Origin: Maricaulis salignorans
Lineage (GTDB): Bacteria > Pseudomonadota > Alphaproteobacteria > Caulobacterales > Maricaulaceae
NCBI RefSeq assembly: GCF_900103475.1
Contig: NZ_FNHG01000005.1
Coordinates: forward strand, 1 to 64,000
DNA length: 64,000 bases
Direction of reading: 5' to 3'
Positions 16,215 through 18,763 of the stretch are shown here, piece after piece. The translations under genes and the position numbers were made by a program. The first letter of the stretch is position 1, and the number at the start of each line of letters is the position of its first letter. Under the pieces are notes generated by a model that was given only the letters and a program-made list of their open reading frames with translations, had not been told where the DNA came from and searched no databases.

Positions 16215-16892
16215 CTAGCTGCGTGGCCCGGGCCCGTAACGCATCCGGCCGAGCAGACCGCCAATATCGGGCAGGTCGGCGGTCAGTTTGAGAATCTGGC
16301 CCTTGGTCTTTTCGAAATCCATCACATTCTGGATCCGGCGATCAAGAAATTCGCGCGCTTGCGGCTTGTCCGCGCTGTCCTCATTGAGCCAGCTCGAGAG
16401 CGTCGTGCCGAAGACGCCGGAAAGAATCGCCCGCTTGGAGTAGAAATTGGCATCGGTGGACGTGTCCCCGATCGCACGCCAGATCGTGTCGGCTGTCGCC
16501 CACAGCAATTGCGGGGCCTGGCCCGCAGCATCCGGCAATAGCAGTCGTGCGCGGGCACGCCGGGCGGCTTCCTCGTGCGGCGCGATGGCTTCCAGCCGGC
16601 ACAGCACGCCGAAGGTGACGCGTTCGCGAATTTTCATCTTGGCCAGCTCGGCCTTGACGATCTTGCGCCCGGCCTGGCGATCAAGCTGGCGCGACCAGAA
16701 ACCGATCAGCTCAAGATCGCCGCCAGGGCAGGCATTGCGGGCATCGCCTGACGACAGGCCGGCGTCATCACAGGCCTTTTTGAAGGTCGAGGATGACCAG
16801 CCATCGAAGGCGGCATGGGCCAGTGCCGCCTCGAGCAACTGTGTGCGGACGGTCTCTGTGTGAGTGCGGGGGGCGGTTTCGGTGTCGATCAT
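16215..16892 (-). CDS. COQ9-family ubiquinone biosynthesis protein
   Basis: 225 residues. COQ9 binds lipid and assists COQ7-type hydroxylation in ubiquinone synthesis. The N-terminal TetR-like fold is visible (LLEAALAHAAFDGWSSSTFK), and the C-terminal COQ9 domain includes LLWATADTIWRAIGDTSTDANFYSKRAIL, split here as two recognisable blocks around the WRAIGD motif. It belongs functionally with ubiX in this window. Divergent from rpsU. Confidence 0.9.
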   Translation of the reverse strand: MIDTETAPRTHTETVRTQLLEAALAHAAFDGWSSSTFKKACDDAGLSSGDARNACPGGDLELIGFWSRQLDRQAGRKIVKAELAKMKIRERVTFGVLCRLEAIAPHEEAARRARARLLLPDAAGQAPQLLWATADTIWRAIGDTSTDANFYSKRAILSGVFGTTLSSWLNEDSADKPQAREFLDRRIQNVMDFEKTKGQILKLTADLPDIGGLLGRMRYGPGPRS

Positions 16893-16956
16893 GTGCCATA
16901 TGTACCGGACTGGGCTCGCGGCGTCACCTGGTGCGAGTGCGCTGACAGAGTAGACT

Positions 16957-16990
16957 CAGCTTCGCGGCTCTGGTATCAGCCGCGAAGCTG
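16957..16990 (+). promoter_or_regulatory. Long hairpin in the rpsU upstream region
   Basis: A perfect 13-bp inverted repeat: CAGCTTCGCGGCT (16957-16969) with AGCCGCGAAGCTG (16978-16990), loop of eight bases. No T run follows, so it does not look like a terminator. It lies 54 bp before the proposed rpsU start and could be a 5' UTR regulatory hairpin or a protein-binding palindrome between rpsU and coq9. Confidence 0.55.
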
Positions 16991-17044
16991 GCAAACTAGC
17001 GACGTGGGGGTGGCCCTCGCGTCCAGCAAAATGGAGAGAGAGCC

Positions 17045-17281
17045 ATCGTTCAGATCGTTGTGCGCGATAATAATGTGGAGCAAGCGCTCCGCGCGCTGAA
17101 GAAAAAAATGCAACGGGAGGGTACCTTCCGTGAAATGAAACGTCGGAACCATTACGAGAAGCCCTCGGAGAAGAAGGCTCGCCAGAAGGCTGAAGCCATT
17201 CGCCGTGCGCGCAAGCTCGCCCGCAAGCGGGCACAGCGCGAAGGCCTTGTGGCCGTCCGTGGTGGCACCGTTCGTCGCTAG
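17045..17281 (+). CDS. rpsU: 30S ribosomal protein S21, apparent ATC start
   Basis: 78 residues. S21 lies near the anti-Shine-Dalgarno region of the 30S subunit and aids initiation. The body is typical: [41 protein letters not shown]21 proteins of this class normally begin MVQI(V/F)VRDNN. Here the codons for VQIVVRDNN are present but the codon at the initiator position, 17045, is ATC. GGAGAGAGAG (17033-17042) is well placed for 17045. The only canonical in-frame alternative is GTG at 17060, which would remove five conserved residues and has no ribosome site. Confidence 0.88.
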
Positions 17282-17307
17282 GGTTCGCCAGAGCCTGTAG
17301 AATTCAG

Positions 17308-17345
17308 GAAAACGCCGCGTCCCTCAGGGACGCGGCGTTTTCTTT
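17308..17345 (+). terminator. Intrinsic terminator after rpsU
   Basis: A perfect 16-bp stem (17308-17323 with 17327-17342), three-base loop, T-rich tail. The left arm begins GAAAA and the right arm ends TTTTC, so it may also serve the convergent ABC operon. Confidence 0.9.
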
Positions 17346-17371
17346 CGTTCTGAATCAGGAGGGCGCCGGCC

Positions 17372-18763
17372 TCAGCCCGGCTTGCTCTTGCCGCCGAGGC
17401 GGAACCAGCCCTTCACCGTGTCCTGATTGGCCTGGTTGAGCGCGCCCATGCGGAACATCACGCCGGCGCCCCAGATCACAGCCGCCGCCGTCGCCACCAT
17501 CACCACAGTCGTGCCGATGATGTCGAACAGGGCCGGGTCCTGGGGCAGGCGGGCCAGCATGATGAAGGGCGTCCACAGCGGCACCCAGCTGGCGATGACG
17601 ATGATCGGCGAATCGGGTGCATCGGCCGCCACCATCACCAGGAAGAGCGGCACCATCATGATCAGCATCATCGGGCTCATCAGGGTTTGCGCATCCTGCA
17701 GCGTCTCGCACAGCGAGCCGATGGCGAGGAAGATCGCGCCATACATCAGATAGCCGATAATGAAATAGCCGATCGCCGGAAAGACCAGGGCCGGATCGAG
17801 CACCGCGGCCATGATTTCTCCCAGCGGCAGCTCGGCTGCGAATGGCATTTGCTGGAGGCCCAGCCCCACGGTCGCGGCCAGTCCGCCCCAGACCAGCAGA
17901 AGCGTGGTCGAGACAAGGGCGACGCCCAACAGCTTGCCGGTGAGGATTTCATGATGTCGTGACGAGGCGAGCATCATTTCGAGCACCTTGTTGCCCTTCT
18001 CCTCGATCATGGCTGTGAGTAGCATGTTGACGACCGAGAAGATCACGATCCACAGCCCGAAGGCGACGGCGATCGCGACAATGATCGGCAGGCGTTCGGC
18101 CGTGGTGACTTCGGCGGCTTCGGCGCTGCGTTCGGGATTGAGCTCGCGCACGGTCGGCGTCAGCTCGCCCGCAGCCGCGACCAGTTCAGGAGATACACCG
18201 CTTTCCAGCAGCCGATTGAGCTGCATGTATTCGCGCAGGGTGCGGCGGATTTCCGAGCGCAATTCACCATCGGTGAGATTGGTGCTCCAATACTCCACAT
18301 CGATCGCGCCGCCCGCGGCCTGGCGCAGATAGATGGCGGCGAACAAGGGCTGTGGCCCGTCGCTCGTCTCGACGGTCTGTTCGCCCAGCAGATAGGGGCG
18401 CAGGGTCTCGATATCGGTTACATCGGGATAGACGCGGATGTATTTCTCTGCCGGTTCGGGCGCATCGGCGATCGCTGCGGCAATGGCGGGATTATCGCCG
18501 AGGAGTTCGGCGGTGGCTTCGCGGGTCGCTTCGGCCCGGGCATCGCGGGATGCGGAGCGCTGGCTCTCGATGGCCGCCTCAAGTGCGCCGCCGGACTCGT
18601 CGATCAGGGCGTAATAGCGGGTTGGCTGGGAGCTTTCGATCAGGATGGGCAAGCCAAAGCCCAGCGCCATGAACATCGGCATTGAGGCCAGCGAGAGCCA
18701 GAAGCCCCAGGTGGCGACATAGGAGAGGTATTCGCGTCGTGCGATGAGATAGATAGCGCGCAT
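17372..18763 (-). CDS. ABC transporter permease, NatB/ABC-2 type
   Basis: 463 residues. One N-terminal membrane helix near residues 20-42, a large extracytoplasmic domain of about 190 residues, then five to six helices from about 225 (LPIIVAIAVAFGLWIVIFSVV) onward, including the conserved MLLTAMIEEKGNKVLEMMLAS block that couples to the ATPase. This is the NatB-like sodium/drug exporter layout. Its ATG overlaps the TGA of the ATPase gene by one base, so the two are translationally coupled. Cargo is unknown. Confidence 0.85.
   Translation of the reverse strand: MRAIYLIARREYLSYVATWGFWLSLASMPMFMALGFGLPILIESSQPTRYYALIDESGGALEAAIESQRSASRDARAEATREATAELLGDNPAIAAAIADAPEPAEKYIRVYPDVTDIETLRPYLLGEQTVETSDGPQPLFAAIYLRQAAGGAIDVEYWSTNLTDGELRSEIRRTLREYMQLNRLLESGVSPELVAAAGELTPTVRELNPERSAEAAEVTTAERLPIIVAIAVAFGLWIVIFSVVNMLLTAMIEEKGNKVLEMMLASSRHHEILTGKLLGVALVSTTLLLVWGGLAATVGLGLQQMPFAAELPLGEIMAAVLDPALVFPAIGYFIIGYLMYGAIFLAIGSLCETLQDAQTLMSPMMLIMMVPLFLVMVAADAPDSPIIVIASWVPLWTPFIMLARLPQDPALFDIIGTTVVMVATAAAVIWGAGVMFRMGALNQANQDTVKGWFRLGGKSKPG

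Follow-up and report, generated by a model that had tools for sequence, protein, structure and literature searches.

In the window, by which is meant the whole 64,000-nucleotide stretch of Maricaulis salignorans DNA analysed here, the rpsU gene for ribosomal protein bS21 appears to start with ATC at position 17045, an assignment that is well supported by sequence comparison. Readings from across the order point to a wider rule, in which ATC, ATA, ATT and CTG would be interchangeable at the first codon of rpsU, with avoidance of ATG. On balance, and with modest confidence, we favour the reading that rpsU is one of the near-cognate-start genes that are restrained by IF3, initiated in this case at ATC. 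The elements of the locus are as follows.

17045 to 17281, forward strand: rpsU (ribosomal protein bS21), 78 codons plus stop when counted from ATC, by translation and Pfam
17045 to 17047, forward strand: proposed initiation codon ATC, with no canonical start from the TAG at 16997-16999 to codon 6
17033 to 17042, forward strand: Shine-Dalgarno (SD) sequence GGAGAGAGAG, with 8 nt from the end of its GGAG core to ATC
17060 to 17062, forward strand: GTG codon 6, the nearest downstream canonical codon, not conserved as a start
17279 to 17281, forward strand: rpsU stop codon, by frame translation (78 residues)
17308 to 17343, forward strand: probable rpsU terminator, a strong GC hairpin and then a T-rich stretch, read from the sequence
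17001 to 17023, forward strand: possible leader hairpin (tentative), directly 5' of the SD
16215 to 16892, reverse strand: COQ9-domain gene, divergent neighbour of rpsU
Downstream of rpsU, convergent: ABC-2 permease gene

The frame translated from ATC 17045 opens with I(M)-V-Q-I-V-V-R-D-N-N and belongs to the Ribosomal_S21 family of Pfam (PF01165; E 2.6e-20, 72.3 bits against a cut-off of 27), in agreement with the sequence-only reading of this DNA, which had recognized the conserved S21 start from this position onward. The same reading had proposed the ATC start and a purine-rich SD correctly spaced for it, and both proposals were borne out, since ATG, GTG and TTG are absent between the upstream in-frame stop (TAG, 16997-16999) and codon 6, and the GGAG core, 8 nt before ATC, is conserved across the genus. 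Its description of GTG 17060 as the only canonical in-frame option was correct inasmuch as this is the nearest one downstream, but GTG at codon 11 and ATG at codon 22 also lie within the gene. No second rpsU copy was found, the whole 3.1 Mb genome giving a single match to the bS21 family. When solved structures were searched with the rpsU product, the best match was a designed repeat protein, followed by bS21 chains at E 5.6e-9, and these bS21 structures were uninformative on the N-terminus. As a separate observation, the COQ9-rpsU intergenic region contains a perfect 13-nt inverted repeat, CAGCTTCGCGGCT / AGCCGCGAAGCTG, with an 8-nt spacer (16957-16990), which was absent from the 15 other leaders of the genus that were compared.

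An rpsU match was present in 17 of 19 genomes of the genus, and all 17 kept ATC together with the SD, despite synonymous changes in codons 2 and 6. The alignment of close relatives that had been suggested as a check on whether ATC is fixed thus gave a positive answer, and the agreement of the 17 genomes led to the rejection of a sequencing error at this codon. Codon 6 is GTA in two of these genomes (L028 and L031) and GTC in a third (L018), so that GTG cannot serve as the start in the latter. In an uncultured Maricaulis record (L032), the 40 bases 5' of ATC were identical to those of three genus members (L006-L008). Elsewhere, codon 1 was ATC in Robiginitomaculum (L035, L041), CTG in Aquidulcibacter (L037) and TTG in Marinicaulis (L033, L034).

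In the family of the window's genome, 121 of 137 genomes had an rpsU match, which in 50 of them began only at residue 2. Twenty-three of these 50 were read, and all had ATG, with a protein starting M-V/I-E-I-Y-V-R-Q-N-N. From the other 71, 70 were read, one genome (G048) being left out because its match was a fragment without the N-terminus; they had ATC (66), ATA (three) or CTG (one), and none had ATG. In one locus (L168 of genome G135) the match fell into two overlapping pieces in different frames, perhaps through an assembly error.

A pattern search of 299 genomes of the order for ATH followed by codons for VQIxVRDN found 106 with the pattern, always with ATC or ATA as codon 1, and a second search found rpsU in 237 of 239 genomes. 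Codon 1 was then read in 230 genomes from 53 genera as ATC in 137, CTG in 39, ATG in 23, ATA in 15, TTG in 11 and ATT in five, proportions that are not frequencies, since the choice of genomes depended in part on the codon itself (presence or absence of the ATH match), besides family and genus. With the same qualification, the start was other than ATG in 207 of the 230 genomes and 45 of the 53 genera, and was ATC, ATA, ATT or CTG in 196 genomes. Among these, 30 of 30 genomes of family f5 selected by family alone, five others of it being already included, were read, and 37 further f2 and f5 genomes, known from the ATH pattern search, were added; the 30 had ATC (14), TTG (11) or CTG (five), and never ATG. 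ATG was confined to eight genera, all of family f1 (g2, g3, g5, g7, g9, g12, g16 and g17; e.g., loci L155 and L157).

Two different non-ATG codons occurred within one genus in eight cases (g4, g6, g8, g20, g25, g35, g37 and g38), of which seven are solid and g35 is doubtful; its ATA came from a 5 kb contig (L446 of genome G343) with a leader resembling that of the f2 genus g20, and this contig is perhaps a contamination in the f5 genus. All six codons seen at position 1 are either ATG or one substitution away from it. Leucine at this position was encoded exclusively by CTG (39) or TTG (11), 50 of 50, and the 910 internal leucine codons of the same genes were CTG 429, CTC 173, CTT 131, TTG 121, TTA 28 and CTA 28. 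Since two substitutions separate ATC from CTG, the direct path from one to the other passes through ATG or CTC, and the fact that ATG on this path was not retained would point to selection against it.

We consider it very improbable that ATC is an ordinary isoleucine codon and that translation starts at some other canonical codon, or at the ATG at 17031 followed by a frameshift. What such a start would explain is that 109 of the 196 genomes with ATC, ATA, ATT or CTG have an in-frame ATG, GTG or TTG upstream before any stop, at a distance of up to 5 codons in 32, 6 to 15 in 35, 16 to 40 in 36 and further away in six. Among the closest cases, seven of 25 genomes of g20 (L201, L410, L417, L427, L428, L429 and L445) have an ATG in frame that overlaps the SD, at a distance of four codons. 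In some g25 genomes and one of g56 a TTG stands two codons before codon 1, with about 2 nt between it and the GGAG core, and part of g18 has an in-frame TTG before the SD. Relatives with such close in-frame codons may, judging by their sequences, use a different rpsU start. Nonetheless, the upstream codons vary in kind and place even within the window's own genus, 10 genomes of which have a TTG, GTG or ATG 9 to 14 codons away, and in the window and 87 of the 196 genomes the frame is closed upstream, with a stop before any canonical codon. Among the genomes of the SD analysis described below, 67 of 159 were closed in this manner, and their next canonical codon was codon 6 in 43, codon 11 in two and codon 15 or later in 22; codon 6 itself is not conserved as GTG. 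For the window, an upstream start or a frameshift from ATG 17031 was rejected, there being no canonical codon back to TAG 16997. Furthermore, codon 1 switches among Ile, Leu and Met codons that are each one step from ATG, and it is for codon 1 that the SD is positioned. The ATG at 17031-17033 overlaps the SD and is conserved within the genus, and an SD-overlapping ATG recurs in g8 and in family f2, but neither in the window's genus nor in 18 of the 25 g20 genomes does it share the rpsU frame, and many other genera are without one.

The SD was examined in 190 genomes of the order, its core being defined as GGAG, AGGA or GAGG at -17 to -4. The core was found with ATC in 111 of 112 genes, ATA in three of three, ATT in five of five (together with CTG, 35 of 39, these make 154 of 159), TTG in 11 of 11, and ATG in one of 20. 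The contrast between non-ATG genes (165 of 170) and ATG genes (1 of 20) has a p-value of 4e-10, which carries no phylogenetic correction, the contrast being one clade event. Median pairing energies of the -17 to -4 stretch, calculated with ViennaRNA duplexfold, were -8.1 (ATC), -7.4 (ATA), -6.7 (ATT), -9.2 (CTG), -11.3 (TTG) and -5.0 kcal/mol (ATG). The ATG-start group combines a diverged N-terminus (M-V/I-EIYVRQNN) with an almost complete lack of the SD.

The retention of the SD core where the start is weak would also be expected if bS21 controlled its own synthesis, such that 30S subunits without bS21 prefer a strong SD combined with a weak start, and low bS21 raises its own production. This scheme, which we regard as unlikely though worth serious attention, is modelled on Flavobacterium, and the weak start would sharpen the effect. 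In its favour, ribosomes of Flavobacterium johnsoniae that lack bS21 are described as favouring the rpsU mRNA (PMC9976891), bS21 adjoins the SD helix in published accounts (PMC4611024, PMC13009471), and some genes have very strong SDs, reaching -14.6 kcal/mol with CTG and -14.3 kcal/mol with TTG. However, pairing in the 112 ATC genes, the window's included, ranged from -12.7 to -5.7 kcal/mol, so that none had the extended SD of the Bacteroidota type (< -13 kcal/mol), a threshold that derives from a different program than duplexfold. In addition, autoregulation alone leaves the preference for near-cognate codons unexplained.

The possible leader hairpin at 17001-17023 had 94.4% of cells paired among 12 distinct sequences, with one pair changed on both sides, and its covariation score was reached by 140 of 500 shuffles. 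The leader of the genus can be drawn with either of two competing hairpins, one upstream and one covering the SD and start, the latter without any doubly changed pair; an RNA switch in the leader of rpsU is at most a tentative proposal. A search of Rfam with 16800-17400 returned five weak matches, all below their own gathering scores. Several leaders of family f3, with CTG starts (L216-L223 and others), were seen to fold into stable hairpins that end a few bases before the SD.

Outside the order, 82 rpsU loci of the class (L256-L285, L346-L385 and L394-L405) were assigned starts by rule, codon 2 being preferred if it was ATG, GTG or TTG. By this rule the start was at codon 2 in loci with GTG (43), TTG (12) or ATG (11), and at codon 1 in those with ATC (eight), TTG (four), GTG (two), ATA (one) or CTG (one). 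It appears from these sequences that weak starts are the tendency of rpsU in the class, and that near-cognate ones recur beyond the order. Since GTG and TTG, which are not discriminated by IF3, account for 61 of the 82 loci, control by IF3 cannot by itself explain the pattern of the class.

The commonness of weak rpsU starts of all kinds in the class, GTG and TTG included, is what one would expect if the weak start simply fixed a low and constant yield of bS21, with no regulation, a view to which we give little credence, less than to autoregulation. In Staphylococcus aureus, reporters with near-cognate starts are reported to reach about 10% of the level obtained with AUG in poor medium, and ccpN up to 30% in rich medium (PMC13009471), and the lack of an SD in the ATG group looks as if the yield were held constant. 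Yet the SD or the promoter would be simpler ways to tune yield, and the repeated interchange of ATC, ATA, ATT and CTG suggests that a property of the codon itself matters.

Control by IF3 has a model in infC. Of 41 relatives, 39 yielded this gene, which was examined in 38 loci, its start being placed by eye from its position beside the SD and a conserved xRRP motif; the start was ATA in 29, ATT in four and ATC in four, i.e., in 37 of 38, the start of L391 not being located. Several infC genes (e.g., L286, L313 and L386) also contain an ATG, four or five codons into the frame as assigned, so that the assignments are likely rather than proven, and L388 has an ATT ahead of its ATA. The earlier suggestion of AUN-type initiation as in infC drew support from this comparison, the infC of the window's own genome (L309) starting with ATA behind a GGAGAA SD. 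In the group with ATG in rpsU, both genomes in which infC was read kept a near-cognate infC start, ATC and ATA. The genes for S15, S16, S18 and S20 of the window's genome start with ATG, so that a near-cognate start is no common trait of its ribosomal protein genes.

The rpsU gene of the window has the features of a near-cognate-start gene, namely a conserved codon other than AUG, GUG or UUG, an SD at a suitable distance and no usable canonical start, and the avoidance of ATG by most relatives in the order suggests that the start is kept weak on purpose, for control of output. IF3 is described as destabilising 30S complexes on start codons besides AUG, GUG and UUG, and repression at CTG is covered by this general statement only (PMC4611024, PMC5472188). 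Because IF3 disfavours such codons, and with infC and sigR as precedents, we infer that the rpsU mRNA is IF3-sensitive. In the proposed mechanism, the initiator tRNA would read ATC 17045, where the strong SD positions the ribosome; codons of the ATC, ATA, ATT and CTG type would make the 30S complex on this mRNA sensitive to IF3, as for infC, and the SD would provide enough affinity for the gene to work despite its weak codon. Output of bS21 would then vary inversely with the amount of free IF3 per 30S subunit, and bS21, a protein of the 30S initiation platform, would thereby be coupled to the state of the initiation machinery. A feedback component from bS21, as the sequence-only reading had also suggested, is plausible, because the protein works close to the SD helix and, in Flavobacterium, regulates the mRNA that encodes it (PMC9976891).

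Several observations weigh against this IF3 reading: one group of f1 genera uses ATG (23 read of 50 genomes); codons not discriminated by IF3 are found as TTG in 11 f5 genomes and as GTG or TTG in the 61 of 82 class loci; and an upstream in-frame canonical codon exists in the 109 of 196 genomes, within 5 codons in 32. The common factor may be a general requirement for a weak start, of which IF3 sensitivity may be one form. A more ambitious version, in which rpsU and infC constitute a start-codon regulon, is possible, although we lean against it; here, the IF3 level or 30S fidelity would set bS21, bS21 would alter SD-dependent initiation, and the resulting homeostatic circuit of two genes for the 30S initiation platform would be maintained, across many codon replacements, by selection against ATG.

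Several known systems share features with rpsU as read here. Like infC, which starts with AUU, AUC or AUA and is autoregulated by IF3, it combines a conserved near-cognate start and an SD with a product that acts at initiation; unlike infC, its product is a ribosomal protein, feedback is only proposed, and CTG and TTG also occur at the position. Also distinct from infC is sigR of Streptomyces, whose GTC start is, as in rpsU, conserved, non-canonical and missed by gene finders, although IF3 repression was reported for sigR itself and is conjectural for rpsU, a core ribosomal protein gene (PMC5472188). Bacteroidota rpsU, autoregulated through ribosomes lacking bS21 (PMC9976891), is the same gene with a special translation initiation region. 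What sets that region apart is an extended SD, whereas here it is the start codon, the SD of ATC genes being strong but ordinary; the Bacteroidota type is further defined by an anti-SD that bS21, bS18 and bS6 sequester and that is freed if bS21 is lacking. The S. aureus genes cvfC1 (AUU) and ccpN (AUA) also have a conserved non-canonical start and a strong SD that aids the weak codon (PMC13009471). They differ from rpsU in that the latter encodes a ribosomal protein and comes from a different phylum. E. coli rpsT starts with UUG, which is canonical for IF3, and rpsT of the window's genome starts with ATG, in which respects the E. coli gene is unlike rpsU here. It resembles rpsU in being a ribosomal protein gene (bS20) whose weak start is suspected to be regulatory (PMC10931766).

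Besides infC, very few natural near-cognate-start genes are characterised, according to one account (PMC5472188), and a 2024 review gives the regulation of rpsU in E. coli as unknown (PMC10931766). Ribosome profiling in Caulobacter assigned CTG to 0.7% of starts and other near-cognate codons to 0.25% (PMC4117421). Among the literature matches listed for rpsU or bS21 start codons there was no report of a near-cognate rpsU start, although a CTG start of the Caulobacter gene may be contained in Dataset S1 of PMC4117421. This type of control is already known, and the new element is that a core ribosomal protein gene probably shows it throughout an order. In practical terms, gene finders that allow only ATG, GTG and TTG would truncate or mis-start rpsU in such genomes. 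The ATG-start genera without an SD offer an internal natural experiment, and the start codon opens a way of testing what determines bS21 levels outside Bacteroidota. Overall, in 207 of the 230 genomes and 45 of the 53 genera of the order that were read, ATG is avoided by the gene for a core ribosomal protein which itself takes part in initiation.
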